Positions 3,179-42,391 of a stretch of 64,000 bases of DNA are shown piece by piece (the first letter of the stretch is position 1; every line of letters starts with the position of its first letter). The notes beneath the pieces are model-generated. The model did not search any database. It saw nothing but the letters and a program-made list of their open reading frames with translations, and was not told the origin of the DNA. The position numbers and the translations under genes were made by a program. This DNA is from Siphonodentalium dalli (taxonomy: Eukaryota; Mollusca; Scaphopoda; Gadilida; Siphonodentaliidae): the NCBI GenBank assembly GCA_032622095.1, contig CP136062.1, positions 224,206,578 through 224,270,577 of the forward strand, given 5' to 3'.

Positions 3179-3333
3179 AGCACCATCGTTATTCCTATCC
3201 TATGTACTCTGGAGTAATGAAGAGGTGAATGTAACAGGTAACTGCATAGTGATGATGAAGGCTAGTGATTCAACATTCTCAAACAGTACGAAACCCTGCG
3301 GAGAGACTGCTGGATTTTTCTGTGAGACCCACT
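3179..3333 (+). CDS. CTLD C-terminal half exon (most upstream lectin exon)
   Basis: Acceptor TATCCCAG at 3171-3178 and donor GTGAGT at 3334. The 155-bp exon has 1 nt, 51 codons, then 1 nt. The translation contains LSYVLWSNEEVN, TGNCIVMM and ends GFFCETH, fitting the last third of a C-type lectin domain: a Trp before an acidic stretch, then the last two conserved Cys. It is shorter than the other C-half exons here (69-83 codons), so this domain is probably split by one more intron; the rest must lie upstream of the window. The phase-1 donor matches the following EGF exon. No EPN or QPD calcium/sugar motif is seen, so ligand type is unknown. Its 3' edge is the seed of the tandem array that follows. 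Confidence 0.7.
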
Positions 3334-3810
3334 GTGAGTATTTACTATATATAGAAATTAATGTGTGAGATCCACTGTGAGTATTTACTATATATAGACA
3401 TTAATGTGTGAGACCCACTGTGAGTATTTACTATATAGACATTAATGTGTGAGATCCACTGTGAGTATTTACTATATATAGACATTAATGTGTGAGACCC
3501 ACTGTGAGTATTTACTATATAGACATTAATGTGTGAGATCCACTGTGAGTATTTACAATATAGACATTAATGTGTGAGACCCACTGTGAGTATTTACTAT
3601 ATAGACATTAATGTGTGAGACCCACTGTGAGTATTTACTATATAGACATTAATATTTATTTATCATATCATTTTCTGTGAGACCCACTGTGAATATTTAC
3701 TATATAGACCTTAATGTGTGAGACCCACTGAGTATTTACTGTATAGACATTAATATTGATTTATCATATCGTTTCGTGTGAGACTCACTGTGAGTATTTA
3801 CTGTATAGAC
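3326..3810 (+). repeat. Tandem array of the exon edge and 5' splice site (~41-60 bp units)
   Basis: About 11 copies, including the real one, of a unit that starts in the exon ('GAGACCCACT'), crosses the donor ('GTGAGTATTTAC') and ends 'ATAGACATTAATGTGT'. The GTGAGT is kept in most copies; one has GTGAAT (near 3687) and one lost part of the site (near 3727). Some units carry an extra 'TTTATTTATCATATC' segment. The intron therefore begins with a ladder of intact-looking 5' splice sites. Confidence 0.9.
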
Positions 3811-4077
3811 ATTCATTTTGAAAGAAAGTTTGGAGCTAATGTTCCTAAGTTAATTAATGTTATTAAAACACTACATTGCCACTCTTAATTAAGTAAAACT
3901 TACAACATTGTCATTTACCAACTATGCCACTGAGTTAGGGCTGTGTCTATTTATTTTCATGATTGCATCAGCATGAGGATAACTATAAATAGCGCATATT
4001 ATTAATCCAATCCCGAGCACTCGTAACTGTCAATTTGAGCTTTAGTGTCACTGGCATTAATATTATGAATATTTCAG

Positions 4078-4191
4078 ATATTGAGGATTGTGCTTCAAAT
4101 CCATGCCACAATGGAGCAACCTGTCATGAGGGAATCAACAACTATACATGTGAATGTCCCGTTCGTTACCATGGAGACCACTGTGAATTCT
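4078..4191 (+). CDS. EGF-like domain exon 1
   Basis: Acceptor ATTTCAG ends at 4077; donor GTAAGT starts at 4192. The exon is 114 bp, symmetrical phase 1 (2 nt, 37 codons, 1 nt), the classic layout of a mobile EGF module. Residues show six EGF cysteines in order: EDCASNPCHNGATC, then NNYTCECPVRYHGDHCE. The aromatic and glycine residues between Cys5 and Cys6 are present. A second exon of identical length and phase lies at 60020-60133. The upstream neighbour is a CTLD C-half and the downstream one a CTLD N-half, so the order is CTLD-EGF-CTLD. EGF modules here are probably spacers in an extracellular protein. The first residues lack the D-x-D/N-E consensus of calcium-binding EGF, so calcium binding is doubtful. 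Confidence 0.85.
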
Positions 4192-4802
4192 GTAAGTTAG
4201 TTACCGTAGTTACCTGTCATGAGGGAATCAACAATTATACATGTGAATGTCCCGTTAGTTACCATGGAGACCACTGTGAATTCTGTAAGTTAGTTACTGT
4301 AGTTACCTGTCATGAGGGAATCAACAATTATACATGTGAAAGTCCCGTTCGTTACCATGGAGACCACTGTGAATTCTGTAAGTTATAGTTACTTGTCATG
4401 AGTGTATCAACAACTATACATGTTAATGTCCCGTTCGTTACCATGGAGGCCACTGTGAATTATGTAAGTTAGTTACCGTAGTTACCTGTCATGAGGGAAT
4501 CAACAATTATACATGTGAATGTCCCATTCGTTACCATGGAGACTACTGTGAATTATGTAAGTTAGTTACCGTAGTTACCTGTCCTAAGGGAATCAACAAT
4601 TATACATGTGAATGTCTAGTTCTTTACTATATAGGCCACTGAATTTCTGTAGGTTAGTTACCATAGTTACCTGTCATGAGGGAATTAACAATTATACATA
4701 TGAATGTCAAGTTCGTTACTATGGAGACCACTTTGAATTCTGTAAGTTAATTACCGTAGTTACCTGTCATGAGGGAATTAACAATTATACATGTGAATGT
4801 CC
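4192..4802 (+). repeat. 93-bp tandem array of half EGF exon plus 5' splice site (left part)
   Basis: The unit is the second half of the EGF exon (from 'ACCTGTCATGAGGGAATC'), its donor (TGTAAGTTAG) and a short intron piece (TTACCGTAGT). Spacing is 93 bp (31 codons), so the first three units read in one frame through the splice sites until a stop at 4386-4388. Later copies decay (TGTAGGTTAG near 4648, other substitutions). The array is broken at 4803 by a hAT-like insertion and resumes at 6157. Confidence 0.9.
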
Positions 4803-6156
4803 TAGAGCTGAAACGGTTGACCCATTCTTCTAACCGGTTAACCATCGGGGTTAACCGGATTTCAACCGGTTAACCGCTAAATTTCTAGCGGACTTCTCTC
4901 ACACTAATTATGTCGACATTATGCCATGCTCCAGGGACAAACCTAGGTGAGAAGTAGTAGCTGAAATAAAGACCTTATTATTCACGGCATTTAACGATAT
5001 TCAAAAACACGCATTAACTGTTCTTTTGCTGGCTCTCGTGATGGGGAATGAGCAAGTGAAATTTGTGAATGGCAGGGGAGATCGCTTATTTGCCGTGATC
5101 AGCATATGTTTGGGCATTTGTAAAACGATTAAAAAATAGTATGGGTATTGGTAAAACGAGTAACAAAACTATATATTAAATATCTGTAATATATCATTAT
5201 CATCATTGGTATATCCTCCAATGCATTATATATACAGACAAGAAAGTAATAACTACATGTAGAGAATTAAAAAAGGAAGGTCAGTTAGGTCAGACTCGCA
5301 GTCCTATTCAGTATTCGAGCTATTCGTCGGTATCATGATAGCGGACACTAGTGTTGGGAGGTTATATAATTTACGTTTCGGTTTCGGTTTTAGTATGCAA
5401 TCACTTAACATATAGCAATTACTGCCAAATTGAGTGTTAATTAGTCCCACAGACACAACCAGTTACAGAGTAGCATGGAGCATCAATTTCCTTGATAAAA
5501 GGGAAGATTATTGAAGAAGTTTTGGGTTGCTTCAACTACGATGTCTGTTGGGTCACTCAATTGAATTGATCATATTAAATCACAACAGGGAGGAAGAACG
5601 GGAAGAGTGAAGACATTGTGCTGCTGATCTCAATCTTCAAACTTTGTCGACTTACATAGTTTTTATAAACCCCACTGTAAAACAGTTTTATATATAGTAT
5701 GTCGTGGTGTGACTCCAATTTGAATCCATGTTGCTTCGTGCAGTATTAACTATTAAGTTACGAAAGCACGCATTGCCACACAACGCCACTTTTACGTTGT
5801 CATTTCCTTGTGTGCATTCAGACTTGATACATAGTGACTGCACACATGCTTTTGTCGGAAGAAAACTTCAAAGGGTCGGAATTGATTGAAGGTCGCCGAC
5901 ACTTCCAGACAGTTCGAGAATTGCTACTAAGTATCTGATACTACCGCGTGTACCAATTAATGCTTGCATTGCACTCTACTATCGGTGACACAGGATTTAG
6001 TATTAGTTTTGCATCATTTAACCTAATATTTTGAGGATTATTCACGTTCACATTCAACTGACAACGGGATGCGGTTACGTCCGGTTCATATTTTTCTAAC
6101 CGGTTACGTCGCTAACCGGATGCTAACCGGTTAACCGTCTAACCGTTTCAGCTCTA
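4803..6156. mobile_element. Nonautonomous hAT-like DNA transposon with 8-bp TSD
   Basis: Inverted ends TAGAGCTGAAACGGTT and AACCGTTTCAGCTCTA, flanked by an exact 8-bp duplication GAATGTCC (4795-4802 and 6157-6164). Sub-terminal repeats of 'TAACCGGTTAACC' occur at both ends. There is no open frame long enough for a transposase in 1,354 bp. The 8-bp TSD and end structure are hAT hallmarks. It sits inside the 93-bp array, so it arrived after the array had expanded. Confidence 0.9.
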
Positions 6157-6450
6157 GAATGTCCACTCCGCTACTATGGAGACCACTGTATTGTATAGTC
6201 AGCTACCGTATTTATTTGTCATGAGGGAATTAACAATTATACATGTGAATGTCCAGTTCGTTACTATGGGGACCACTGTGTATTATATATGTAAGTTAGT
6301 TACCATAATTACCTGTCATGAGGGTATCAACTATACCATACTTATGAATGTCCAGTCCGTTACTATGGACACCACTGTATTGTATAACTTAGCTACCGTA
6401 GTTACATGTCATGAGGGAATCAACAATTATACATGTGAATGTCAAGTTCA
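6157..6450 (+). repeat. 93-bp half-EGF array (right part, decayed)
   Basis: Continuation of the array beyond the hAT insertion: three further units with 'TGTCATGAGGGAAT' or variants at about 6218, 6318 and 6406. Two have lost the donor (TGTATAGTCAG, TGTATAACTTAG) and one keeps TGTAAGTTAG near 6290. The array ends abruptly at about 6450 where another repeat begins. Confidence 0.8.
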
Positions 6451-6660
6451 TTGTTCCCCAAAAAAAATATTTTTGGGGGACTATTGTAATCAGCCCCGTC
6501 CGTCTGTCGTGCCGTCACGTCTGTGCGTCCCGTCCGTCCGTGTGTACATGCGTCCGGAGTTTTACTCCAGTAATGATCATCCAATTTGATTGAAACTTGG
6601 TATGTAGGTGTCTCAACAAAGAACACAGGTGCTCTGCAATTCTGGGTTTGATCCAATGTT
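6451..6660. repeat. Interspersed repeat with CCGTCCGT-rich core
   Basis: Starts with a small hairpin (CCCCAAAAAAAATATTTTTGGGG), followed by 'ATTGTAATCAG', a CCGTCCGTC-rich stretch and 'TTGATTGAAACTTGGTATG'. The same order (AATCAG, GTCCGTTCGTC, GAAACTTGGCACAG) is seen in the array at 32400-32690 and near 32820-32900, so this is a dispersed family. Class unknown. Confidence 0.5.
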
Positions 6661-7290
6661 CTTTTATGGAGTTATTTCCCTTTTTTCAACTTTTTATTTA
6701 CTTAGAAAATTTAGGTTTCCGGATGATATTTCAAGTTTGGATCCTTTAATTGCAAATACCGTTCTTATGTGGATCAGTCATATCAAGATAGAGGTTGAGT
6801 TTGATCAGATGATTTTTCCTAGAGTTATGATAAATAGTTAAATTAACAATGTTGATTCCACCATTTTCCTGTTTTTGTGGAAACTATGGGAATTGCATTC
6901 ATAGCAACATTAATATATTACAGCAAATTTTCAGTATCCCAATAAAATTCATTTTGCAACCTTTTGCTCTGGCTTATTTGAGTTAATAATGACACGAGGA
7001 TGCATTTCTAAATGATATTAAACAAGAGCACTCAATCCTTCCTCATAACAATATTTGGACCAATTGAATGCTGACTTCCTTGTCATGTGCCATTAGGATC
7101 AGTCATTTGAGACATATTATTTCGTCACATGACATAAACAAACATTGTACCAATTTCGTATAGCACTGTTTTTGAATTTTTTTTGGGTTAATTATTCCTA
7201 TTGTATTGAATTCACGAACGACGATATCCATATTTTCTTATTATGGTTGAATATGACTATAGTAGTTGAATTCAGGATGTGCCTAACCTG
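6661..7290. other. Intron sequence, nothing recognised
   Basis: AT-rich sequence without a supportable exon, repeat boundary or RNA gene. The short open frame across 6608-6841 shows no family features. Confidence 0.4.
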
Positions 7291-7682
7291 TTAACCCTTT
7301 ACCCAACAGAAGGGCCCTGTGCCAATGCATTCTCTTATATATGCGAGTCGACCATAGGTCGCCTCGCATATATAAGAGAATGCATTGGCTTAACACATTA
7401 AAAATTATAAAATTGTTAAAGAAAAAATGGTAAAAAGTGTTAAAAAAAGATTTTTTTTAGGCCAATGCATTCTCTTATATATGCGAGGCGACATATGGTC
7501 GACTCGCATATATAAGAGAATGCATTGACACAGGGCATAACTGTAACTATCACAATGTGGTCAAGGAGCCGGTTCCAATGATATCCATATTTGTATGGTT
7601 CTATTGAGACAGACCGAAGATATTTTAGGCTGTTGAAGCTTTATTTGGCCGGTTTTGGCCGTTTTGTTGGGTAAAGGGTTAA
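7291..7682 (+). mobile_element. TTAA palindromic MITE (piggyBac-like), copy 1
   Basis: Begins TTAACCCTTTACCCAACA and ends TGTTGGGTAAAGGGTTAA, so TTAA flanks both ends as in piggyBac-type insertions. Inside are two hairpins, each made of GCCAATGCATTCTCTTATAT arms around GCGAGTCGACC-type centres, separated by an A/T-rich spacer. The right part carries 'CCGAAGATATTTTAGGCTG'. No coding capacity. The same structure occurs at 20507-20905, 23966-24355, 30758-31151 and 32005-32396. Confidence 0.85.
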
Positions 7683-7792
7683 TTATAGTACTTCAAAAAA
7701 ATATTTAATTTTAGAAATGGATGTTGACTAATGACCAAAAAAAGCCTTCTTTTCAGGGGATGCATGACCAAGCAGCCTCTTATTAACCCTTC

Positions 7793-7914
7793 CATGACAG
7801 GAGCTTCCTGAAATTTTGTGAAAACCTTGTGACATTGCATTCTCTAAAGTATGTGAGTCTCCCATTGGCATCTTTAATGCTGCACCAACGCAGCTCCAGT
7901 CATGAAAGGGTTAA
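7793..7914 (+). mobile_element. Short TTAA MITE, 122 bp, next to an exon
   Basis: Ends TTAACCCTTCCATGAC and GTCATGAAAGGGTTAA, with TTAA at both borders; the middle contains a decayed 'GCATTCTCTAAAGTATG' arm and 'TCTTTAATGCTGCACCA'. A small relative of the 390-bp MITE. Its right end is only 34 bp before the 3' splice site of the exon at 7949, so it probably abuts the branch-point region. Confidence 0.75.
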
Positions 7915-7948
7915 CATTGATTTCAATTCAACCTCAATTCTTTTCCAG

Positions 7949-8114
7949 TCAATAACACATGCTACCATCCAGATGCTCAAATCTTCAATGGAACATGCTA
8001 CTGGTTTGTTTTTGAAGACTTATCATTGTGGACAGCGGATGATAAATGCAGGCTTTATGGTGGCACACTCGCCATTCCTTATAATGAAGAAATCATCAGC
8101 TTCATTTCTGACAT
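7949..8114 (+). CDS. CTLD1 N-terminal half exon
   Basis: Acceptor CTTTTCCAG-type tract ends at 7948; donor GTAAGC at 8115. Two nt, 54 codons, two nt: phase 1 in, phase 2 out. The translation begins NNTCYHPDAQIFNGTCYWF and continues DDKCRLYGGTLAIPYNEEI. It holds the first Cys pair of a long-form CTLD, the TCYW aromatic core, and the third Cys with the G-G/A-x-L-A strand. These are standard CTLD landmarks. Joins in frame to 13796 (AT|G codon). Two potential N-glycosylation sites (NNT, NGT) are visible. Extracellular; ligand not predictable. Confidence 0.88.
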
Positions 8115-8179
8115 GTAAGCTATAACAGTCAAATAATTTATGAACCCTTTCTTTATATATTGAATGGATTCTCCCACAA

Positions 8180-8690
8180 GCCTGAGTTTAGCACACCGGG
8201 CTAGCATCACTAAATTCACCATCTGTGGACCTCATTCTGCTTAAGCCTCATCTTCTCTGGAAAGTTTCTTTATTATCAAATTTCTATAGAAAGTTATTCA
8301 CATAGATTCAATTTCTTTTTTGGTTTAGTTTCTGTATATCCCCAAATTGGCAGACGACACATTGCATAATCGAGGTTCCCAATGGGTGTACATCACAAAA
8401 TTCACCATTTGGGAACTTCAATCTGAGTCTATCAACCATGGCAGATGAGGTCATCCAGAATGATGTCCCCAGAGGGTGAATTTGGTGATGCTAGCCCGCT
8501 ATGTGGGATAGCGTCACTAAATTCATCCTCTGGGGACCTCATTCTGCAAATAACAGAAATAAAAGCCTAAAAATATTTTGCTTTTAAGTCGAAGTCATCT
8601 TCAGGTCTTGAAATAGTGTGCATGTCATTTGTAGATTGAGGTCCCCAGAGGGTGAATTTAGTGACCCCTAAACTACAGCAGAATTATGTT
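8180..8690. mobile_element. Foldback MITE family B, long copy
   Basis: Two palindromic cores, each with arms 'GGTGAATTTAGTGATGCTAG' and its inverse meeting at CCCGCTATGTGGGA. They are separated by a spacer with 'TTTCTATAGAAAGTTATTCA', 'CCCCAAATTGGCAGACGACA' and 'TTGGGAACTTCAATCTGAG'. Outer parts read CAGAATGAGGTCCCCAGAGG. The family recurs near 11453, 20007, 21136, 24962, 26446, 28060, 29560, 58788 and 60238. The palindrome creates short chance open frames wherever it lies. A further partial core lies at 8637-8680. Confidence 0.8.
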
Positions 8691-8770
8691 AAATTTTCAG
8701 GATTTAGTCGGAAATATGGCTTGCTGCCATTCATCGGAAAGTTTGAATGATGCCGACCGATAAAATTGTC
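8667..8770. mobile_element. TA-type small MITE family C, decayed copy
   Basis: Contains 'CAGCAGAATTATG', 'TTTTCAGGATTTAGTCGGAA' and 'GCCATTCATCGGAAAG', the interior of the better copies at 10956-11081 and 27878-27990. The terminal GTAATGCCCTAAG ends are not preserved here. Confidence 0.55.
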
Positions 8771-8828
8771 AGAAAGGGTTGTTTTATTGCGAACAGTTAG
8801 AGGAAAATGACAAATTTGTTTTTCCCTA

Positions 8829-9250
8829 ACAGCATCAAACAACCAGCCTCATAACCATAACCTAATCCAAGAACCAGGCTCATAACCTTAACCTAATCCG
8901 ACATCCAGGCTCATAACCTTAACCTAATCCGACATCCAGGCTCATAACCATAACCTAATGAGATATCCAGCCACATAACCATACCGTAATCAGACAACCA
9001 GACTCCTAGCCATAGTCTAATTCAACAACCAGCCTCATAACCTCAACCTAATCCGACATCCAGGCTCATAACCATAACCCAATAAGACATCCAGGCTCAT
9101 ATATATAACCTAATCTGATAACCAGACTCATAACCATACCCTAATGTGACAACCATACCATAACCTAATCTGAATCATAACCATAACCTAATTCGACAAC
9201 CAGGCACATAACCCAATAAGACAACCAGCCTCATAACCTTAACCTAATAT
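8829..9250. repeat. Minisatellite of ~33 bp (CATAACC-TAACCTAATC type)
   Basis: About 12 degenerate units of the form 'CCAGGCTCATAACCTTAACC' followed by TAATCCGACAT. Each has TAACC-type words, superficially telomere-like, but the period is about 30-33 bp and the array is too diverged to be telomeric. Confidence 0.8.
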
Positions 9251-9360
9251 GAAATGTATATATGTGTGGGGCTCAAAATTGAGAAAAAGAGTGCAAACAT
9301 AGTAAATTACATACTCCAAGCTTAAATTTCAATAATTTTCTGATTATTAAAATATATATA

Positions 9361-10388
9361 TACAGTTAAACTTCGTTAAGTCGAATCGCAAGGGACCGTT
9401 GTATTACTTCGAGTTATCCGTGTGTTCGACTTAACCATTTCGATCATTTGGTGACCACAAATTCCAACTAGTCAAATTCATTTTGATCCAAAAATAATTG
9501 TTTTCAACCGTGTGCACGCTATCTACCCACGCTAAATCAATAGGAGGTCACTATGCTGATCACATACAACAGACGAGATGATATTTGTTCTGATTATTTA
9601 ATGAATAATATAACAAAAACACAGAATATGATAAGAAAACATCAACAAATTAGCGGTAGAAATATCAAAAGTACATTTGACCCGTAAGTGGTTACAATAG
9701 TATTTACAAAAATTGGGATTCAGGATTGGAAGTGACTGCATGGTGATCATCAGGGACTGTGGTTTCTGCATATATTTAGTTGTTGAATATTTATTTAGTC
9801 TATCACTGATTCCCAGCATTTTCACAAGGTCATCGGCCGTGTTTGCTTGCGCAATTAGATAACGCATTACAATGTTATTGTTTTTCCATCGTTAGATGGA
9901 TGGCGCATTTCTTCGTTTGGAACATTGTTTTCGTTTTGGGAAAACATGACTGAATGCAATTATTCTCTGTATCATGCGGTTTAAATATGATTTTCAGTTC
10001 GTCTGTCAACACTTCTAATCCTCACACGGGGAAAACTGACCCACACCCCCGTTAATATGTTAAATAAACAATGCATTAGGACATATCAAGACTCCAGGAA
10101 ACTTCACAGCTTTTTATGCAATTGAATAGAAGCACACTGAGTTTTAATCGCATGCCGATGCGTTGCTGACGGCGCTTCGACTTAACCATAGTAATTATTG
10201 TTATAAGCTGGGTGTGGGACCAAATTTCATTTCGACTTAAGCGGAATTTCAACTTATCCACCTTCGACTTAACCGTGATTATTTTAATGGCTTTGCACAC
10301 AAGCTCATGCAGCCAGGACCAGGCAATGACTTTGACTTATGTGGGGTATTCGAGTTACCGGCGTTCGACTTAACGAAGTTTGACTGTA
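9361..10388. mobile_element. pogo/Tc1-mariner-like element, ~1 kb, decayed
   Basis: Inverted ends CAGTTAAACTTCGTTAAG (from 9363) and CTTAACGAAGTTTGACTG (to 10386), each flanked by TA. Sub-terminal 'TTCGACTTAACC' words recur at both ends. TA target duplication and CAGT...ACTG ends are typical of the Tc1/mariner/pogo superfamily. The longest internal frame (minus strand, 9598-9867, 89 aa) has no clear DDE motif that I can see, so the copy is nonautonomous or inactive. Confidence 0.75.
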
Positions 10389-10950
10389 TAAGCATTTAAT
10401 GTGTATGTGTATGTAGGATATTTAGCAGCGAACCAGTTAATGTATACCCCCAGTGGAATACAAGCCGGACCTATTCTTGTTGATGTCACCAAAAAAGATG
10501 ACATACATTTCATCAACGTCAATTGCTTCGGGTGAAGGCCCAATAATTACTCTTTATTCATCAGACTTAAATCACAATAAAGGTAGCTATAGTATCAATG
10601 AAAGTGACAGCCATTGATTATGTATAGTGTAGAATAATACAGGACACAACTTGCATCATAATCTCAAATCTTTTATCGAACTTGTTGGAGATGCCGCAGT
10701 TACATTTCACTCGAGCTACACTCTCGTGAAATATATTATTGCGCCATCTGCAACTCATTTGATAAAAGATTCTATTAAGATGCGCCTTATATTCTGTCTA
10801 TGCCGACCGAGACACAATGCACACAATGGATAAACATTTACGACAACAACCCCACAGAGTCTTCATCATCAATTTTAGGGGGACTGAGTCGCAATGACTT
10901 TTACCTCTTTTAAAAATAAATTAACATGTATGGATTTGTCCGTACTGGAT
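10389..10950. other. Intron stretch with one imperfect inverted repeat
   Basis: No exon recognised. Between 10666 and 10774 the words AATCTTTTATCGAA and TTTGATAAAAGATT form the outer arms of an imperfect hairpin, with 'TTTCACTCGAG' and 'CTCGTGAAA' as inner arms. It looks like a small foldback element of unknown family. Confidence 0.4.
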
Positions 10951-10955
10951 ATATA

Positions 10956-11081
10956 CAGTAATGCCCTAAGTAATCGACTCCTTAACCACAGCAGAATTAT
11001 GGGTAACTTTTCAGGATTTAGTCGGAAATATGGCTTGTTGCCATTCATCGGAAAGCTCTCCCGATTACTTAGGGCATTACT
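10956..11081. mobile_element. TA-type small MITE family C, complete copy
   Basis: Ends CAGTAATGCCCTAAGTAATC and GATTACTTAGGGCATTACT, bordered by TA on each side. The interior carries 'CAGCAGAATTATGGGTAAC' and 'GGATTTAGTCGGAAATATGG'. At about 126 bp with near-perfect inverted ends it fits a mariner-like MITE. Other copies: 27878-27990 and 32900-33012. Confidence 0.75.
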
Positions 11082-11227
11082 ATAGTTAACATTTTAATGT
11101 CAGACTAGGAAGAATGTGTGCTGGTCAACATGTGGCCTGTAAATTTATGCCCAAGATAACTGTAGATAACAGATCAAAGAAATAACGATGCACCATTTAA
11201 ATAATAATTATATTGGATATAAACTTA

Positions 11228-11331
11228 ATTCAATTGCAATATTGTTCTATGTAAATAATGTGCACACACACCTGTACATATGTCATGTCTATGTAAATAA
11301 TGTGCACACACACCTGTACATAGGTCATGTC
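11228..11331. repeat. Direct duplication, 2 x ~43 bp
   Basis: The segment 'CTATGTAAATAATGTGCACA' followed by 'CACACCTGTACATA.GTCATGT' occurs twice in tandem. No other features in this intron stretch (11085-11450). Confidence 0.7.
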
Positions 11332-11452
11332 ATGAAACTCTACTCTGGCTATGCCCGTACATAGAGATCATATTCCACCAGTTGACATATGGGAAATGTT
11401 TTATGTTCTGACCTGTTCTGTTGGGAACTTCCAAGCCTGCAAATAGCATGTC

Positions 11453-13545: not shown

Positions 13546-13550
13546 TGCAG

Positions 13551-13795: not shown

Positions 13796-14046
13796 GTGGT
13801 TTGAACAGGCACCGTCCTACCAAGGAAACATAACAATATTCCCGTTTTGGACTGGGATCACACACGCTCGGGTGAATGGATACTGGATGACATGGGATGG
13901 CGACCATATTGAATGGGATCTTGACTATGCGAGATTGCCATCGAGTATTGACACCAGTAGATACGTGGTTGCAGAAGCAAATAATGACACATGGAGTACC
14001 AGCGGCTCTGAACTACTCTACCGTCACTTCCTGTGTGAATCTCCCC
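13796..14046 (+). CDS. CTLD1 C-terminal half exon
   Basis: Acceptor TATTTTGTAG ends at 13795; donor GTGAGT at 14047. One nt, 83 codons, one nt: phase 2 in, phase 1 out, matching its partner at 7949-8114. The translation contains FPFWTGITHARVNGYWMTW, a typical CTLD 'F-W-T/I-G' core with a following Trp, and ends LLYRHFLCESP, the terminal Cys strand. The position where the penultimate conserved Cys is expected reads RYVVAEANN, so that disulfide may be absent. No EPN/QPD or WND motif, so classical calcium-dependent sugar binding is unlikely. Several N-x-S/T sites are present. Confidence 0.88.
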
Positions 14047-14704
14047 GTGAGTATAATAATAATAATAATGGTGCTTATATAGCGCTTTCATGTATCTCCC
14101 CATGAGTATAATAATAATAATAATGGTGCTTATATAGCGCTTTCATGTATCTCCCCATGAGTATAATAATAATAATAATGGTGCTTATATAGCGCTTTCA
14201 TGTATCTCCCCATGAGTATAATAATAATAATAATGGTGCTTATATAGCGCTTTCATGTATCTCCCCATGAGTATAATAATAATAATAATGGTGCTTATAT
14301 AGCGCTTTCATGTATCTCCCCATGAGTATAATAATAATAATAATGGTGCTTATATAGCGCTTTCATGTATCTCCCCATGAGTATAATAATAATAATAATG
14401 GTGCTTATATAGCGCTTTCATGTATCTCCCCATGAGTATAATAATAATAATAATGGTGCTTATATAGCGCTTTCATGTATCTCCCCATGAGTATAATAAT
14501 AATAATAATGGTGCTTATATAGCGCTTTCATGTATCTCCCCATGAGTATAATAATAATAATAATGGTGCTTATATAGCGCTTTCATGTATCTCCCCATGA
14601 GTATAATAATAATAATAATGGTGCTTATATAGCGCTTTCATGTATCTCCCCATGAGTATAATAATAATAATAATGGTGCTTATATAGCGCTTTCATGTAT
14701 CTCC
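14041..14704 (+). repeat. 55-bp tandem array of exon edge, 5' splice site and LINE/SINE-type tail
   Basis: Twelve near-identical units of CTCCCC, xTGAGTATAATAATAATAA and TGGTGCTTATATAGCGCTTT. The unit joins the last bases of the CTLD1 exon and its donor to a sequence that, on the minus strand, is a LINE/SINE 3' tail (AAAGCGCTATATAAGCACC then ATT repeats). Only the first copy has GTGAGT; all later ones have ATGAGT. The array ends exactly where the DIRS-like element starts. Confidence 0.92.
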
Positions 14705-20506: not shown

Positions 20507-20905
20507 TTAACCCTTTACCCAACAAACCGGCCAAAACCGGCCAAATAAAGCTTCAACAGCCTAAAATATCTTCGGTCTGTCTCAATAGAACCATACAAAT
20601 ATGGATATCATTGGAACTGGCTCCTTGACCACATTGTGATAGTTACAGTTATGCCCTGTGCCAATGCATTCTCTTATATATGCGAGTCGACCATAGGTCG
20701 CCTCGCATATATAAGAGATTGCATTGGCCTAAAAAAATCTGTTTTTAACACTTTTTTCCATTTTTTCTTACATTCTTTAACAATTTTATAATTTTTAATG
20801 TGTTAAGCCAATGCATTCTCTTATATATGCGAGGCGACCTATGGTCGACTCGCATATATAAGAGAATGCATTGGCACAGGGCCGTTCTGTTGGGTAAAGG
20901 GTTAA
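20507..20905 (-). mobile_element. TTAA palindromic MITE (piggyBac-like), copy 2
   Basis: Same element as 7291-7682 in the opposite orientation: TTAACCCTTTACCCAACA at the left and TGTTGGGTAAAGGGTTAA at the right, with the two GCATATATAAGAGA hairpins. TTAA at both borders. Confidence 0.85.
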
Positions 20906-23966: not shown

Positions 23967-24355
23967 TAACCCTTTACCCAACAGAAGGGCCCTGTGCCAA
24001 TGCATTCTCTTATATATGCGAGTCGACCATAGGTCGCCTCGCATATATAAGAGAATGCATTGGCTTAACACATTAAAAATTATAAAATTGTTAAAGAATG
24101 TAAGAAAAAATGGTAAAAAGAAGATTTTTTTAGGCCAATGCATTCTCTTATATATGCGAGGCGACCTATGGTCGACTCGCATATATAAGAGAATGCATTG
24201 GCACAGGGCATAACTGTAACTATTACAATGTGATCAAGGAGCCGGTTCCAATGATATCCATATTTGTATGGTTCTATTGAGACAGACCGAAGATATTTTA
24301 GGCTGTTGAAGCTTTATTTGGCCAGTTTTGACCGTTTTGTTGGGTAAAGGGTTAA
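23966..24355 (+). mobile_element. TTAA palindromic MITE (piggyBac-like), copy 3
   Basis: Right border TGGGTAAAGGGTTAA; the left border reads ATAACCCTTTACCCAACA, so one TTAA base has changed. Two hairpins as in other copies. Inserted in repeat family E (compare 2240-2250) and ending 15 bp before the splice-site array. Confidence 0.85.
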
Positions 24356-24369: not shown

Positions 24370-24753
24370 TGAATTCTGTATATTTCAGTGAATCCTGTGA
24401 ATTCTGTATATTTCAGTGAATCCTGTGAATTCTGTATATTTCAGTGAATCCTGTGAATTCTGTATATTTCAGTGAATCCTGTGAATTCTGTATATTTCAG
24501 TGAATCCTGTGAATTCTGTATATTTCAGTGAATCCTGTGAATTCTGTATATTTCAGTGAATTCTGTATATTTCAGTGAATCCTGTGAATTCTGTATATTT
24601 CAGTGAATCCTGTGAATTCTGTATATTTCAGTGAATTCTGTATATTTCAGTGAATCCTGTGAATTCTGTATATTTCAATGAATCCTGTGAATTCTGTATA
24701 TTTCAGTGAATTCTGTATATTTCAGTGAATCCTGTGAATTCTGTATATTTCAG
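24370..24753 (+). repeat. Tandem array of the 3' splice site, 28/18-bp units
   Basis: About 15 copies of GAATTCTGTATATTTCAG followed by TGAATCCTGT. The unit is the polypyrimidine end and AG of the acceptor plus the first bases of the CTLD2 exon (TGAATCCTG). All but one copy (TTTCAATG, near 24676) keep the AG. The last copy is the real exon border at 24753/24754, so the exon is preceded by a ladder of near-identical acceptors. Confidence 0.92.
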
Positions 24754-24934
24754 TGAATCCTGAGCGTCTTTGTGCTCATCCTGATGCTGAATTCGACTTT
24801 GTGACCCGACGATGTTTCTGGGAAGCAGAAGCCCTCACAAACCCAGATACAGCTGAGACTTATTGTCAAAAGCTAGAAGGGAATTTAGCTAATATTTATA
24901 ATCATGATGTCCACATGTTCCTCCACAATAAACT
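24754..24934 (+). CDS. CTLD2 N-terminal half exon
   Basis: Acceptor TATATTTCAG ends at 24753; donor GTGAGT at 24935. Two nt, 59 codons, two nt, the same phases as CTLD1. The translation starts NPERLCAHPDAEFDF and contains TRRCFWEAEA and ETYCQKLEGNLANIY: Cys1-Cys2 pair, aromatic strand, Cys3 and the G-x-L-A strand of a CTLD. The exact acceptor is ambiguous in principle, because upstream array copies would add short in-frame or out-of-frame sequence (see findings). Confidence 0.88.
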
Positions 24935-27148: not shown

Positions 27149-27387
27149 GTTTGGATCAAATTGTCCACCTGCATGGACTGGAATCCGATCACTGATTCAA
27201 AATGGAGTAAAAAACTCACATATGACATACGTGACAGCAAAAGGCAGCTACTTGGGGTGGGACAGCTTTATGGGCACACCAGATCGACATTGCACAATGA
27301 CATCACAGGGCTCCTGCATGTTGTCTAGCACAGGTTGTTCTGTTCCTTCATCGTCTACTTACAATCATTATATATGTGAAGCAAAGC
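27149..27387 (+). CDS. CTLD2 C-terminal half exon
   Basis: Acceptor TATATTTCAG ends at 27148; donor GTAAGT at 27388. One nt, 79 codons, one nt; the split codon CT|G gives Leu and joins 24934 in frame. The translation has FGSNCPPAWTGIRSL (CTLD W-T-G core), SYLGWDSF, then PDRHCTMTSQGSC and the terminal SSTYNHYICEAK. Unlike CTLD1 and CTLD3 this domain keeps the penultimate Cys (RHC) and has extra cysteines between, so its disulfides look complete. No EPN/QPD motif. Confidence 0.88.
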
Positions 27388-30757: not shown

Positions 30758-31151
30758 TTAACCCTTTACCCAACAAACCGGCCAAAACCGGCCAAATAAA
30801 GCTTCAACAGCCTAAAATATCTTTGGTCTGTCTCAATAGAACCATACAAATATGGATATCATTGTAACCGGCTCCTTGACCACATTGTGATAGTTACAGT
30901 TATGCCCTGTGCCAATGCATTCTCTTATATATGCGAGTCGACCATAGGTCGCCTCGCATATATAAGAGAATGCATTGGCCTAAAAAAAAATCTTTTTTTA
31001 ATACTTTTTACCATTCTTTAACAATTTTATAATTTTTAATGTGTTAAATTAAGCCAATGCATTCTCTTATATATGCAAGGCGACCTATGGTCGACTCGCA
31101 TATATAAGAGAATGCATTGGCACAGGGCCCTTCTGTTGGGTAAAGGGTTAA
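30758..31151 (-). mobile_element. TTAA palindromic MITE (piggyBac-like), copy 4
   Basis: TTAACCCTTTACCCAACA to TGTTGGGTAAAGGGTTAA, with TTAA at both borders; two hairpins. Inserted 14 bp from the right end of the hAT-like element. Confidence 0.87.
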
Positions 31152-31800: not shown

Positions 31801-31804
31801 TCAG

Positions 31805-31988
31805 CAATAAGGAGTGATATGTTACCGATACCAAACATTACTGCTTTCAATGATGTGACACTGACCTACTATTGGTATATTCCTGGTGACATGACCTGGA
31901 TGCAGGCAGAAGATGCATGTCAGCCATTTGAAGGAACTCTGATATACAATTTCAATAACTTCACCAGGGAATTTCTTCTCCATGAATT
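31805..31988 (+). CDS. CTLD3 N-terminal half exon
   Basis: Acceptor ATATTTTCAG ends at 31804; donor GTAAGT at 31989. Two nt, 60 codons, two nt; phases as in the other N-half exons. The translation includes NITAFNDVTLTYYWYIP and MQAEDACQPFEGTLIYNF, matching the aromatic strand and the C-x-x-x-G-x-L strand of a CTLD. The first Cys pair seen in CTLD1, CTLD2 and CTLD5 is missing (aligned positions are Leu and Tyr), so this is a divergent domain. Joins in frame to 36560 (TT|G), and the same phase would also fit 36889. Confidence 0.85.
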
Positions 31989-32004: not shown

Positions 32005-32396
32005 TTAACCCTTTACCCAACAGAACGGCCCTGTGCCAATGCATTCTCTTATATATGCGAGTCGACCATAGGTCGCCTCGCATATATAAGAGAATGCATT
32101 GGCTTAACACATTAAAAATTATAAAATTGTTAAAGAATGTAAGAAAAAGTGGTAAAAAGTGTTAAAAAAAAGATTTTTTTTAGGCCAATGCATTCTCTTA
32201 TATATGCGAGGCGACCTATGGTCGACTCGCATATATAAGAGAATGCATTGGCACAGGGCATAACTGTAACCATCACAATGTGGTCAATGAACCGGTTCCA
32301 ATGATATCCATATTTGTATGGTGTCATTGAGACAGACCGAAGATATTTTAGGCTGTTGGAAGCTTTATTTGGGCGTTTTGTTGGGTAAAGGGTTAA
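32005..32396 (+). mobile_element. TTAA palindromic MITE (piggyBac-like), copy 5
   Basis: Full structure with TTAACCCTTTACCCAACA and TGTTGGGTAAAGGGTTAA ends. It starts only 16 bp after the CTLD3 donor. Confidence 0.87.
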
Positions 32397-32399
32397 TAC

Positions 32400-34350: not shown

Positions 34351-34405
34351 TGCGTGTGTGTGTGTGTGTGTGTGTGTGGGTGTGTGTGTGTGTGTGTGTG
34401 TGCGT
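34351..34405. repeat. GT microsatellite
   Basis: About 25 GT dinucleotides with a few interruptions (GTGGGTG), just upstream of the 160-bp array. Confidence 0.9.
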
Positions 34406-34409
34406 GATT

Positions 34410-36190
34410 CGTCAACAATTTCATTTAGCACGGGCTACAGTTCGTACCTTTGGTCCTATTATTATGAAATTTGTCATGGATGTTGACATTGACATGTAGA
34501 TGGAAACGAGTCATTTTGGGGTCATTCGGCCGAAAAACATGGCCGCCAGCGGCCCTTTTGGATTTCAAAATTCAATCCATTAGCACGGGCTACAGGCCGT
34601 ACTGTTTGTCTTATTGTCATTAAATTTCTCATGGATGTTAATATTGACATGTAGATGGGAAACGAGTCATTTTGGGGTCATTCGGCCAAAAAACATGGCC
34701 GCCGGCAGCCATCTCAGATTTTACTTTTGTATGACTAAATTCTTTAGCACGGGCTACAGGTAGTACTTTTAGTCTGATCATCATAAAATTTGTCAAGAAT
34801 GTTAATAATGACATGTAGATGGGAACGAGTCATTTTGGGGTCATTCGGCCAAAAAACATGGCCGCCAGCAGCCATCTTGGATTTTACTCTTTGTATGACT
34901 AAATCCTTTAGCACGGGCTACAGGTCGTACCTTTAGTCTGATCATCATAAAATTTGTCATGGCTGTTGAAATTGGAATGTAGATGGGAACGAGTAATTGT
35001 GGGGTCATTCGGCCAAAAAACATGGTCGCCAGCAGCCATCTCAGATTTTACTCTTTGTATGACTAAATTCTTTAGCACGGGCTACAGGTCGTACTTTTAG
35101 TCTGATCATCATAAAATTTGTCAAGAATATTAATAATGACTTGTAGATGGGAACGAGTCATTTTGGGGTCATTCGGCCAAAAAACATGGCCGCCAGCAGC
35201 CATCTTGGATTTTACTCTTTGTATGACTAAATCCTTTAGCACGGGCTACAGGTCGTACCTTTAGTCTGATCATCATAAAATTTGTCATGGCTGTTGAAAT
35301 TCGAATGTAGATGGGAACGAGTGATTTTGGGGTCATACGGACAAAAAACATGGCCGCCAGTGGCCATCTTGGATTTCAAAATTTAATCCATTAGCACGGG
35401 CCACAGGTCGTACTGTTCGTCTGATCATCATGAAATTTGTCATGGATGATAATATTGACATGTAGATGGGAACGAGTAATTTTGGGGTCATTCGACCAAA
35501 AAACATGGCCACCAGCAGCCATCTTGGATTTTACTCTTTGTATGACTAAATTCTTTAGCACGGGCTGCAGGTCGTACCTTTAGTCTGATCATCATAAAAT
35601 TTGTCATGGATGTTAACAATGACATGTAGATGGGAACGAGTAATTTTGGGGTCATTCGGCCAAAAAACATGGTCGCCAGCAGCCATCTTGGATTTTACTC
35701 TTTGTATGACTAAATCCTTTAGCACGGGCTACAGGTTGTACCTTTATTCTGATCATCATAAAATTTGTCATGGCTGTTGAAATTGGAATGTAGATGGGAC
35801 CAGTCATTTTGGGGTCATTCGGACAAAAAACATGGCCGCCAGTGGCCATCTTGGATTTCAAAATTTAATCCATTAGCATGGGCCACAGGTTGTACTGTTC
35901 GTCTGATCATCATGAAATTTGTCATGGATGTTAATATTGACATTTAGATGGGAACGAGTAATATTGGGGTCATTTGGCCAAAAAACATGGCCGCCAGCAG
36001 CCATCTTGGATTTTACTCTTTGTATGACTAAATTCTTTAGCATGGGCTACAGGTCATACCTTTAGTCTGATCGTCATAAAAATTTTCATGGATGTTAACG
36101 ATGACATGTAGATGGGAACGACTCATTTTGGGGTCATTCGGCCGAAAACATGGCCACCAGCAGCCATCTTGGATTTTACTTTTCTCTTCA
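34410..36190. repeat. ~160-bp tandem array, about 11 units
   Basis: The unit contains TTAGCACGGGCTACAGGTCG, TCTGATCATCATAAAATTTG, GTAGATGGGAACGAGTCATT and ATGGCCGCCAGCAGCCATCT. Units differ by 5-15 percent by eye and alternate between two ending types (GGATTTCAAAATT and GATTTTACTCTTTG), suggesting that 2- or 3-unit blocks were duplicated. Confidence 0.85.
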
Positions 36191-36559
36191 TGTCTATAAA
36201 CTAGTATTAGACATTCAACTTTCCACATTCCTAATCGCTCCATTGACTGTAATACATTAAATTATTCCCTTTCCAAGTTGAGCTACAGTGTCCATTGACA
36301 CTTTCATTTTTGAACTTTCCCAGTTTTGTAAAATAATTAAACCTTCAAACCAGTAAATACACATTTAACACACTACACTGGCTGTTATGCCCCCAGATAC
36401 TTATTTTTCTATTTTTCAGACCCCCTATAACCTGTGAAATCGTGTACTGCTACCTAAATGCAGGAAAGGATTAGTGTGATATCCTAAAAACGGGTGGTGA
36501 ACATAATGTCGCCGGCAACCAGAAAATTCTATTAACATTCTTTTACCTTCTTATTTCAG

Positions 36560-36768
36560 GTTTCATGGTGACCCTAATATAACATTTTGGACAGGAATTT
36601 TTAACAATGGATTGTGGACGACATGGGAGAATGAATCTCTGACTTATTCCAATTGGGATCCGATTTCTACTGGATTAGGAACTTTTGCTTACATTGATGA
36701 GCTAACAGATATGTTTTTAAATGATGGGTCGGAAATTGATCAGAAAGCAGCAGTTTGTGAATCAAAAT
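36560..36768 (+). CDS. CTLD3 C-terminal half exon
   Basis: Acceptor TTATTTCAG ends at 36559; donor GTGAGT at 36769. One nt, 69 codons, one nt. The translation begins FHGDPNITFWTGIFNNGLW (CTLD W-T-G core), continues TYSNWDPISTGLG and ends QKAAVCESK. The expected penultimate Cys is replaced (TFAYIDE). No EPN/QPD motif. The phase-1 donor fits a following EGF or CTLD N-half exon, but not the exon at 36889. Confidence 0.87.
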
Positions 36769-36888
36769 GTGAGTATTTTCAACATGAAGACATTGCTCGT
36801 ATTGACCATTTCTATACTAAATGGATTCTCCCATTCAGTTATAAAATATATAATTGAATGGTCTATTATTCAATTGGAGGGTTTTCAG

Positions 36889-36975
36889 GAAAAATAAGCA
36901 GACAGCAGATAATAATGTTACAGAAGGAGATATATTTATTGGAGGGATAGGATCAGATAATAAGTTCAACAAATG
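36889..36975 (+). CDS. Extra CTLD middle exon, phase 2 in
   Basis: Acceptor GGGTTTTCAG ends at 36888; donor GTGAGT at 36976. One nt, 28 codons, two nt. The translation ends NVTEGDIFIGGIGSDNKFNK plus a split Trp codon (TG|G), closely resembling the start of a CTLD C-half ('D-x-F-W-I-G-G ... N-G-x-F-x-W'). It cannot follow 36768 in frame (phase 1 against phase 2), and there is no CTLD N-half in the 120 bp between. It could follow the CTLD3 N-half (31988, phase 2) as an alternative to 36560, or the N-half has been lost. It joins in frame to 58933. Confidence 0.6.
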
Positions 36976-39900
36976 GTGAGTAGTTATCCCACAGGAAATG
37001 TTCAGACAATAAATTTAACCCTTTCTATACTAAAGCATCATTGATGAGTAGTTATCCCTTAGGAAATGTTCAGATAATAAGTTCAACAAATGATGAGTAG
37101 TTATCCCATAGGAAATGTTCAGATAATAAGTTCAACCCTCTCTATGCTAAAGTCTCATTGATGAGTAGTTATCCCATATGAAATGTTCAGATAATAAGTT
37201 CAACCCTCTCTATACTAAAGTATCATTGATGAGTAGTTATCCCAGGAAATGTTCAGATAATAAATTTAATCCTTTTTATACTAAAGTATCATTGATGAGT
37301 AGTTATCCCACAGGAAATGTTCAGATAATAAATTTAATCCTTTTTATACTAAAGTATCATTGATGAGTAGTTATCCCACAGGAAATGTTCAGATAATAAA
37401 TTTAATCCTTTTTATACTAAAGTATCATTGATGAGTAGTTATCCAATAGGAAATGTTCACATAGTAAGTTCAACAAATGATGAGTAGTTATCTCTTATGA
37501 AATATTCAGATAATAAGTTCAATAAATAATGAGTAGTTATCTCTTATGAAATGTTCAGATAATAAGTTCAACATATATAATCAGTAGTTATCTCTTATGA
37601 AATGTTCAGATAATAAGTTCAACATATATAATGAGTAGTTATCTCTTATGAAATATTCAGATAATAAGTTCAATAAATAATGAGTAGTTATCTCTTATGA
37701 AATGTTCAGATAATAAGTTCAACATATATAATGAGTAGTTATCTCTTATGAAATGTTCAGATAATAAGTTCAACAAATGATGAGTAGTTATCTCTTATGA
37801 AATGTTCAGATAATAAGTTCAACATAAATAATGAGTAGTTATCTCTTATGAAATATTCAGATAATAAGTTCAATAAATAATGAGTAGTTATCTCTTATGA
37901 AATGTTCAGATAATAGATTCAATATATAATGAGTAGTTATCTCTTATGAAATGTTCAGATAATAAGTTCAACATATATAATGAGTAGTTATCTCTTATGA
38001 AATGTTCAGATAATAAGTTCAACATATATAATGAGTAGTTATCGCTTATGAAATGTTCAGATAATAAGTTCAACATATATAATGAGTAGTTATCGCTTAT
38101 GAAATGTTCAGATAATAAGTTCAACATATATAATGAGTAGTTATCTCTTATGAAATGTTCAGATAATAAGTTTAACAAATGATGAGTAGTTATCTCTTAT
38201 GAAATGTTCAGATAATAAGTTCAACATATATAATGAGTAGTTATCTCTTATGAAATGTTCAGATAATAAGTTCAACATATATAATGAGTAGTTATCTCTT
38301 ATGAAATGTTCAGATAATAAGTTTCAACATATATAATGAGTAGTTATCTCTTATGAAATGTTCAGATAATAAGTTCAACATATATTATGAGTAGTTATCT
38401 CTAATGAAATGTTCAGATAATAAGTTCAACATATAATGAGTAGTTATCTCTTATGAAATATTCAGATAATAAGTTCAACATATATTATGAGTAGTTATCT
38501 CTAATGAAATGTTCAGATAATAAGTTCAACATATAATGAGTAGTTATCTCTTATGAAATATTCAGATAATAAGTTCAACAAATAATGAGTAGTTATCTCT
38601 TGTGAAATGTTCAGATAATAAGTTCAACATATATAATGAGTAGTTATCTCTTATGAAATGTTCAGATAATAAGTTCAACATATATAATGAGTAGTTATCT
38701 CTTATGAAATGTTCAGATAATAAGTTCAACAAATAATGAGTAGTTGTCTTATGAAATGTTCAGATAATAAGTTCAACATATATAATGAGTAGTTATCTCT
38801 TATGAAATATTCAGATAATAAGTTCAACAAATAATGAGTAGTTATCTCTTATGAAATGTTCAGATAATAAGTTCAACGTATATAATGAGTAGTTATCCCT
38901 TAGGAAATGTTCAGATAATAAGTTCAACATATATAATGAGTAGTTATCTCTTATGAAATATTCAGATAATAAGTTCAGCATATATAATGAGTAGTTATCC
39001 CTTAGGAAATGTTCAGATAATAAGTTTAACAAATGATGAGTTATGAGTAGTTATCTCTTATGAAATATTCAGATAATAAGTTCAACATATAATGAGTAGT
39101 TATCTCTTATGAAATGTTCAGATAATAAGTTCAACATATATAATGAGTAGTTGTCTCTTATGAAATGTTCAGATAATAAGTTCAACATATATAATGAGTA
39201 GTTATCGCTTATGAAATGTTCAGATAATAAGTTCAACATATATAATGAGTAGTTATCTCTTATGAAATATTCAGATAATAAGTTCAACAAATAATGAGTA
39301 GTTATCTCTTATGAAATGTTCAGATAATAAGTTCAATATATAATGAGTAGTTATCTCTTATGAAATGTTCAGATAATAAGTTTAACAAATGATGAGTTAT
39401 GAGTAGTTATCTCTTATGAAATATTCAGATAATAAGTTTAACAAATGATGAGTTATGAGTAGTTATCTCTTATGAAATATTCAGATAATAAGTTCAACAA
39501 ATAATGAGTAGTTATCTCTTATGAAATGTTCAGATAATAAGTTCAACAAATAATGAGTAGTTATCTCTTATGAAATGTTCAGATAATAAGTTCAACATAT
39601 ATAATGAGTAGTTATCTCTTATGAAATGTTTAGATAATAAGTTCAACATATATAATGAGTAGTTATCTCTTATGAAATGTTTAGATAATATGTTCAACAT
39701 ATATAATGAGTAGTTATCTCTTATGAAATATTTAGATAATAAGTTCAACATATATAATGAGTAGTTATCTCTTATGAAATGTTTAGATAATAAGTTCAAC
39801 ATATATAATGAGTAGTTATCTCTTATGAAATGTTTAGATAATAAGTTCAACATATATAATGAGTAGTTATCTCTTATGAAATGTTCAGATAATAAGTTCA

Positions 39901-42391
39901 ACATATATAATGAGTAGTTATCTCTTATGAAATGTTCAGATAATAAGTTCAACACATATAATGAGTAGTTATCTCTTATGAAATGTTCAGATAATAAGTT
40001 CAACATATATAATGAGTAGTTATCTCTTATGAAATGTTCAGATAATAAGTTCAACATATATAATGAGTAGTTATCTCTTATGAAATGTTCAGATAATAAG
40101 TTCAACATATATAATGAGTAGTTATCTCTTATGAAATGTTCAGATAATAAGTTCAACATATATAATGAGTAGTTATCTCTTATGAAATGTTCAGATAATA
40201 AGTTCAACATATATAATGAGTAGTTATCTCTTATGAAATATTCAGATAATAAGTTCAACATATATAATGAGTAGTTATCTCTTATGAAATGTTCAGATAA
40301 TAAGTTCAACATATATAATGAGTAGTTATCTCTTATGAAATGTTCAGATAATAAGTTCAACATATATAATGAGTAGTTATCTCTTATGAAATGTTCAGAT
40401 CATAAGTTCAATATATAATGAGTAGTTATCTCTTATGAAATGTTCAGATAATAAGTTCAACAAATGATGAGTTATGAGTAGTTATCTCTTATGAAATATT
40501 CAGATAATAAGTTCAATATATAATGAGTAGTTATCTCTTATGAAATGTTCAGATAATAAGTTCAACAAATGATGAGTAGTTATCTCTTATGAAATGTTCA
40601 GATAATAAGTTCAACATATATAATGAGTAGTTATCTCTTATGAAATGTTCAGATAATAAGTTCAGTATATAATGAGTAGTTATCTGTTATGAAATATTCA
40701 GATAATAAGTTTAACATAAATAATGGGTAGTTATCTCTTATGAAATATTCAGATAATAAGTTCAACATATATAATGAGTAGTTATCTCTTATGAAATGTT
40801 CAGATAATAAGTTCAACATATAATGAGTAGTTATCTGTTATGAAATATTCAGATAATAAGTTCAACATATATAATGAGTAGTTATCTCTTATGAAATGTT
40901 CAGATAATAAGTTCAACAAATAATGAGTAGTTATCTCTTATGAAATGTTCAGATAATAAGTTTAACAAATGATGAGTAGTTATCTCTTATGAAATGTTCA
41001 GATAATAACTTCAACAAATGATGAGTAGTTATCTCTTATGAAATGTTCAGATAATAAGTTCAACATATATAATGAGTAGTTATCTCTTATGAAATGTTCA
41101 GATAATAAGTTCAACAAATGATGAGTAGTTATCTCTTATGAAATGTTCAGATAATAAGTTCAACATATAATGAGTAGTTATCTCTTATGAAATGTTCAGA
41201 TAATAAGTTCAACAAATAATGAGTAGTTATCTCTTATGAAATGTTCAGATAATAAGTTTAACAAATGATGAGTAGTTATCTCTTATGAAATGTTCAGATA
41301 ATAACTTCAACAAATGATGAGTAGTTATCTCTTATGAAATGTTCAGATAATAAGTTCAACATATATAATGAGTAGTTATCTCTTATGAAATGTTCAGATA
41401 ATAAGTTCAACATATATAATGAGTAGTTATCTCTTATGAAATGTTCAGATAATAAGTTCAATATATAATGAGTAGTTATCTCTTATGAAATATTCAGATA
41501 ATAAGTTCAACATATATAATGAGTAGTTATCTCTTATGAAATGTTCAGATACTAAGTTCAACATATATAATGAGTAGTTATCTCTTATGAAATGTTCAGA
41601 TAATAAGTTCAACATATATAATGAGTAGTTATCTCTTATGAAATGTTCAGATAAAAAGTTCAACATATATAATGAGTAGTTATCTCTTATGAAATGTTCA
41701 GATAATAAGTTCAATATATAATGAGTAGTTATCTCTTATGAAATGTTCAGATAATAAGTTCAACAAATAATGAGTAGTTATCTCTTATGAAATGTTCAGA
41801 TAATAAGTTCAACATATATAATGAGTAGTTATCTCTTATGAACTGTTCAGATAATAAGTTCAACAAATAATGAGTGGTTATCTCTTATGCAACGTTCAGA
41901 TAATAAGTTCAACAAATAATGAGTAGTTATCTCTTATGGAATGTTCAGATAATAAGTTCAACAAATAATGAGTAGTTATCTCTTATGAAATGTTCAGATA
42001 ATAAGTTCAACAAATGATGAGTAGTTATCTCTTATGAAATGTTCAGATAATAAGTTCAATATATAATGAGTAGTTATCTCTTATGAAATGTTCAGATAAT
42101 AAGTTCAACATATATAATGAGTAGTTATCTCTTATGAAATGTTCAGATAATAAGTTCAACAAATGATGAGTAGTTATCTCTTATGAAATGTTCAGATAAT
42201 AAGTTCAACATAAATAATGAGTAGTTATCTCTTATGAAATATTCAGATAATAAGTTCAATAAATAATGAGTAGTTATCTCTTATGAAATGTTCAGATAAT
42301 AGGTTCAATATATAATGAGTAGTTATCTCTTATGAAATGTTCAGATAATAAGTTCAACATATATAATGAGTAGTTATCTCTTATGAAATGT
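36970..42391 (+). repeat. 5.4-kb array seeded at a 5' splice site (49/51-bp units, ~68 bp at the start)
   Basis: Over 100 units of AGATAATAAGTTCAACAAAT / ATGAGTAGTTATCTCTTATG / AAATGTTC. The first instance is the real exon end and donor (AAATG, GTGAGTAGTTATCCC). All later copies that I read have ATGAGTAG or a variant instead of GTGAGTAG. Early units (36990-37450) are longer and carry CCCTTTCTATACTAAAG; the main unit is 51 bp with a shorter 49-bp form (CAACAAATAATGAG). Multiples of three keep minus-strand frames open. Confidence 0.93.

Follow-up and report, generated by a model that had tools for sequence, protein, structure and literature searches.

Within the multi-CTLD/EGF gene family examined here, tandem arrays cross exon borders about three times as often as expected, whereas in the other genes sampled they do so at about the rate given by array density. 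The window, that is the whole stretch of 64,000 nucleotides that was analysed (C2:224206578-224270577), belongs to a genome of 2.23 Gb in nine contigs, of animal type judging from its exon-intron genes, and carries on the plus strand a gene encoding CTLD and EGF modules, with four arrays lying on predicted exon borders. We give a probability of about two in three to the reading that duplications across these borders were tolerated and then expanded neutrally as intronic minisatellites (arrays 1-4), that a fifth array derives from a dispersed element, and that such border arrays are about threefold enriched in the family.

Ten exons, with putative borders, were called in the window from frame, phase and GT/AG signals, and the AG and the GT are present at all ten (Table 1). 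A further candidate at 58934-59062, considered as a CTLD end exon, was dropped: it contains an in-frame TAG, and relatives of it lie in the flanks of exon L015 and of L009 (minus strand there), which makes it probably a dispersed repeat and not an exon. Between the exons, a palindromic repeat (CCAATGCATTCTCTTATATATGCGA...) was found at 7315-7535, 20650-20881, 23990-24208, 30901-31127, 32029-32258 and 63905-63992, and it reads as a CTLD-like SYICE motif on both strands. The same gene also holds, at 43668-58774, an array 15 kb long in which a 51-bp unit is repeated about 296 times, with 97% matches; open frames of 5,111 aa (minus strand, 43507-58842) and 4,918 aa (plus strand, 43657-58413) extend across it, probably for lack of a stop codon within the unit in either frame.

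Table 1. Predicted exons, tandem arrays and dispersed element in the window (a slash marks the exon border).
Feature	Position	Strand	Description
E1, CTLD C-terminal exon	3179-3333	+	called from frame and splice sites; donor CCACT/GTGAGT; paralog exon 71% aa
Array 1	3321-3813	+	41-bp unit (longer composites too) = 13 bp of E1 + donor + intron
E2, EGF exon	4078-4191	+	donor ATTCT/GTAAGT; paralog 92% aa
Array 2	4119-4802 and 6157-6447 (overall 4119-6447)	+	93-bp unit = 73 bp of E2 + donor + intron
E3, CTLD N-terminal exon	7949-8114	+	borders array-free
E4, CTLD C-terminal exon	13796-14046	+	donor TCCCC/GTGAGT
Array 3	14039-14704	+	55-bp unit, 99%; spans E4 donor, 8 bp of exon
Array 4	24370-24762	+	28-bp unit and a shorter form; E5 acceptor TTTCAG/TGAATCCTG, 9 bp of exon
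E5, CTLD N-terminal exon	24754-24934	+	acceptor within array 4
E6, CTLD C-terminal exon	27149-27387	+	borders array-free
E7, CTLD N-terminal exon	31805-31988	+	borders array-free
E8, CTLD C-terminal exon	36560-36768	+	borders array-free
Dispersed element mimicking exon edge	36801-36975	+	donor-like ATG/GTGAGT belongs to first array-5 unit
Array 5	36953-42394	+	68-bp, then 51-bp unit, related to dispersed element; off any splice border
E10, EGF exon	60020-60133	+	borders array-free
E11, CTLD N-terminal exon	60631-60811	+	borders array-free

All five arrays described in the sequence-only reading were recovered by TRF in the window, as head-to-tail units of roughly minisatellite length (18-148 bp over the TRF periods of the arrays inside and outside the window). 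That reading held that each of the five carries an exon edge together with its splice site, and this stood for four of them at the level of predicted borders: arrays 1, 2 and 3 span the donors of E1, E2 and E4, and array 4 the acceptor of E5, so that the probable true splice site of a coding exon lies inside the unit of arrays 1-4, but not of array 5, whose neighbour is a dispersed element. An insert of about 1.35 kb, in which inverted ends (CTAGAGCTGAAACGGTT...) were recognised by eye, splits array 2 at about 4803-6156. In array 3 the donor GT is absent from all 11 downstream copies, which read ATGAGT; a 23-mer of this array occurs 12 times in the genome as an exact match, always within the array in the window, with no dispersed copies. 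Judged from this 23-mer, the array-3 unit is thus not dispersed through the genome, in contrast to what was found for array 5.

The 175 bp to the left of array 5 are in fact a copy of a dispersed element. A genome search with 36780-36975 gave 2,770 candidates, of which the 40 scored all matched, on contigs C1-C9, and the 39 other copies were 81-87% identical. When five of the other copies were read, four had the array-5 unit next to the element in inverted orientation, and the remaining one had a 21-bp piece of it. The stretch 36889-36975, considered as a CTLD middle exon, was dropped since it belongs to the dispersed element and no such exon was found in a paralogous gene, where a search for an exon-like stretch to the left of array 5 returned short pieces only; an array related to array 5 lies there directly behind array 2. 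The CTLD-like peptide at the edge of array 5 matches the flank of an EGF exon on contig C6 (L062, E 0.004), on the opposite strand and with an internal stop. The best explanation of array 5 is therefore a satellite grown from a dispersed element within an intron.

The paralogous gene lies inverted at C2:225.06-225.11 Mb, about 0.8 Mb from the window gene, and 48 kb of it were read. All ten exons of the window were matched in it, with 51-92% aa identity over the matched parts (the match of E10 crosses the joint of two query exons); for E3-E8 the protein identity is only 51-73%. The paralog borders of E1, E2, E4, E5 and E8 were also checked by eye. Arrays 1 and 2 occur at the same donors in the paralog (2036-2820 and 4000-4909 in its own orientation) and are therefore either older than the duplication or copied between the genes by conversion; arrays 3 and 4 are absent from the 48 kb read and are known only from the window copy. 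The proposed separate birth of the arrays within this one gene was thus confirmed as far as the sequences of the units are unrelated, but not for arrays 1 and 2, which the paralog has in common. The borders of E4 and E5 are the same in the paralog, which has no arrays 3 and 4 there, and no new intron position was observed at these two exons. At the DNA level, the stretches around E10 and E11 (59993-60154 and 60615-60883) are 94-96% identical between the two genes, as compared to 76-85% for E3, E4, E5, E7 and E8, E6 not being among the DNA alignments printed; this patchy identity indicates that gene conversion between the inverted paralogs likely took place at E10/E11.

To compare border arrays with expectation, exons were selected by domain or paralogy, not by arrays. 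A border was scored as spanned when an array covered it, reached at least 3 bp into the exon and had at most about one unit on the exon side, because more would add whole units to the exon. Arrays with a period of at least 10 and a TRF score of at least 60 were used, the period being chosen by score, and the expectation was the number of exons multiplied by the summed unit lengths at array edges and divided by the bases examined. The border arrays themselves were counted in the expectation, which makes the test conservative with regard to an excess; Poisson P values were used, with borders taken as independent. The non-family sample consisted of 40 CTLD end exons and 39 EGF exons across the genome, that is of CTLD and EGF types only, picked by hand among the matches listed (150 per list) and thinned by cluster, and some of them are perhaps from the same gene. 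The family occurs in clusters on contig C2, near 16.6-16.9, 28.7-28.9 and 224.0-225.2 Mb, and family exons other than those of the paralogous gene may belong to the window's own gene. As a separate observation, the region C2:149826765-150592731, of about 0.77 Mb, is a large tandem array of kinases, with dozens of kinase-domain open frames that have an identical score of 140.4 bits.

Four family samples were examined outside the window. The first comprised 20 exons, among them L001-L004 of the paralogous gene, three of which correspond to E4, E5 and E6 and all four of which have unspanned borders; the second, 17 exons, was drawn after the first had hinted at a family effect. For the third, 20 exons of about 35 planned were obtained from a protein query, with the prediction fixed beforehand that, for up to 70 borders planned, at least 8% would be spanned if the effect were real, and 1-2 borders if it were not; the exon-end copies at C2:16805345-16809989 were left out, as were two hits off contig C2 (L153 and L154), which are array-free and enter no count. 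The fourth was made of four EGF exons, with L098, an EGF exon of the family, counted beside them. The acceptors of L151 and L152 were set inside the exon, with no array near either. L114 was excluded by the automatic rule despite 19 exact donor copies, the exon's own included, and counting it would bring the pooled family figure to 11 of 124. L060, L072, L009 and L017, apparently partial or two-copy border duplications, were left uncounted, and L010, L046 and L049, inspected as possible border arrays, turned out not to be border-spanning.

In the window, arrays span 4 of 20 borders versus 0.55 expected (P 0.0025; with sensitive TRF 0.59 expected, P 0.0032), a P value that is post hoc, the window having been chosen for its arrays. 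The family samples gave 4 of 40 borders versus 0.72 expected (sample 1), 4 of 34 versus 1.05 (sample 2), only 2 of 40 versus 0.95 in the sample with the prediction fixed first (P 0.25), which falls short of that prediction, and none of the 10 borders of sample 4 and L098 (0.16 expected), the 8 EGF borders of sample 4 among them. Pooled, and leaving the window aside, the family has 10 of 124 borders spanned versus 2.88 expected (P 0.0008; sensitive TRF 3.37, P 0.0026), or 9 if L006 and L013, which have one common unit, are merged (P 0.0029; sensitive TRF 0.0079); without sample 1, in which the hypothesis was formed, 6 of 84 remain versus 2.16 (P 0.023; sensitive TRF 2.60, P 0.049). Thus, the expectation that arrays lie on splice borders above their density, and recur in paralogous exons outside the window, was borne out in this family.

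By contrast, outside the family 1 of 158 borders is spanned versus 2.45 expected (sensitive TRF 2 of 158 versus 3.73), a null limited by the power of 158 borders and two domain types, and the two groups differ by Fisher's test (P 0.0015; sensitive TRF 0.0063). A general border-specific process, as had been proposed from the sequence, is thus contradicted in the non-family genes sampled, where arrays are no closer to splice sites than expected. The sole non-family case with standard TRF, L079, is an EGF exon on contig C1 whose acceptor is covered, at 269-705, by 15 units of 29 bp (99%). Similarly, when the first 100 exons, family included, were compared with random intron positions, 4 of 200 borders were spanned versus 3.6 (sensitive TRF 5 of 200 versus 5.1). 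Arrays off the borders are about equally dense inside and outside the family (35 in 90.8 kb versus 44 in 122.6 kb; sensitive TRF 53 versus 82), and therefore the excess is specific to borders.

The border arrays outside the window represent nine distinct units, with the pair L006/L013 merged. Over ten distinct donor arrays, window included, the unit is on average 61% exon (45 of 55 bp in L006, 44 of 54 in L112, 53 of 58 in L122 and 58 of 64 in L128). Behind one CTLD exon, L155, a broken array of about 5 kb contains CAGTACAGT/GTATGT in 19 exact copies, counting that of the exon itself. Sibling exons can differ, as L128 has a border array and L127 has none. In the family and window together, donors outnumber acceptors by 11 to 3 (P 0.057), or by 10 to 3 with the shared pair merged (P 0.09), as expected if acceptor duplications were worse tolerated.

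Several explanations can be weighed against these data. That chance and post hoc choice produced the pattern, a genome dense in minisatellites offering one window with four border arrays, appears improbable to us. The post hoc nature of the window P value, the non-family borders, which fit array density, the comparison of the first 100 exons with random positions and the two spanned borders of the third family sample are all in line with it, but the pooled family count is not, whether the shared pair is merged or sample 1 is omitted. Mutation directed to the borders, in which exon edges in the family would be duplicated through R-loops, through template switching or through splicing-coupled breaks close to the 5' splice site, could instead account for a border excess that comes with no matching rise of other arrays, for the surplus of donors over acceptors, for the nine distinct units outside the window and for the five units that end 5-11 bp past the donor (L006, L015, L112, L122 and L128). 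Against this hypothesis, which we regard as unlikely, are the 158 non-family borders with no excess, the low count in the pre-stated sample and the empty EGF borders of the fourth. Equally doubtful, if perhaps a shade less so, is the broader proposal of an exon-edge process, strongest at 5' splice sites, that would repeatedly duplicate the exon end together with its donor in small tandem steps, at some three times the array rate of the surroundings and with no parallel rise of other arrays, and would act as a family-specific source of minisatellites linked to splicing or transcription.

The sequence-only reading had also considered selection for ladders of splice sites, which would keep tandem sites in order to buffer or diversify the splicing of a lectin-like gene. 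Consistent with such a role, the sites are intact in 13 of 13 copies in L006, 12 of 12 in L013 and 9 of 9 in L122, L155 has its many exact donor copies within about 5 kb, and arrays 1 and 2 are common to paralogs. However, over 154 copies at 19 borders (family, window, paralog and two non-family), GT/AG is kept at 286 of 308 sites versus 2321 of 2464 for the other bases, and the dinucleotide is thus no better maintained overall; this comparison is weighted by array 3, which lost the GT from 11 of 11 downstream copies through a single change, and array copies are not independent of one another; without array 3 the figures (275 of 286 versus 2145 of 2288) slightly favour the dinucleotide. Moreover, only 3 of 13 unit lengths are divisible by three, the other 10 shifting the frame, and the open frame of E1 stops at 3366-3368, before the second donor-like GT at 3377. 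Since GT/AG is no better kept overall and most units would shift the frame, a selected splice ladder is the least probable of the explanations considered, and we give it very little credence.

We favour, rather, tolerance of border duplications followed by neutral expansion. The founding unit of arrays 1-4 would have been a short tandem duplication that crossed an exon border by chance. As long as the exon is preserved as far as the outermost donor, or from the last acceptor onwards, such a duplication could be tolerated: splicing at the outermost site would leave the old mRNA unchanged, and the extra copies would therefore count as intron, free to expand, mutate and disappear. As for the excess in the family, small exon-covering duplications are perhaps commoner or longer-lived there. 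The siblings with and without arrays (L128 and L127; E4 and E5 as compared to their paralog partners) agree with tolerance. Tolerance alone, on the other hand, leaves the family excess over, and two of the four window arrays, as well as the pair L006/L013, are common to paralogs, in spite of the low protein identity of E3-E8 between the window gene and its paralog. Border arrays common to such diverged genes suggest that some of them are old, and were kept, or were copied.

As a kind, border-spanning minisatellites are known, from single cases or human paralogs in print. In the accessible parts of the sources, human IFI6 has a minisatellite giving several splice donors (1995; cited in PMC2572611 and PMC4526556), with tandem units carrying a donor at the exon edge as in our case; the IFI6 units, however, are reported to act as donors in RNA, whereas the window family is known from DNA, with several different units, and includes acceptor arrays too. 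Internal tandem repeats at the exon-intron boundaries of recent human paralogs were described by De Grassi and Ciccarelli (2009, PMC2812944), whose cases, unlike ours, are human segmental duplications with transcript support; the accessible text of that paper contains no comparison of array starts with random intron positions. In the intron gain described by Ma et al. (2016, PMC4974935), a tandemly duplicated segment likewise crosses the intron-exon boundary and inherits its splicing signals, but in our case no new intron position was observed, as E4 and E5 have the same borders in the paralog that lacks arrays 3 and 4. Finally, in plants and green algae tandem repeats are reported, in the part of PMC3887541 available, to be more frequent near intron-exon junctions; the enrichment near intron ends is similar, but that study describes how repeat density varies along plant and algal introns, and ours concerns border-spanning units of one gene family. 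Our literature search, which reached few subscription journals, retrieved no animal-genome test of a border excess and no gene family in which repeated independent border births were set against a control.

For annotation these data carry a warning, because dispersed elements resemble CTLD exons, and copies of exon ends within arrays could pass for extra exons. With nine distinct border arrays outside the window and a control free of excess, the family can serve as a natural experiment for asking how tandem duplication is tolerated at exon edges or drawn to them, which also bears on why donors seem to be more tolerant of duplication than acceptors.
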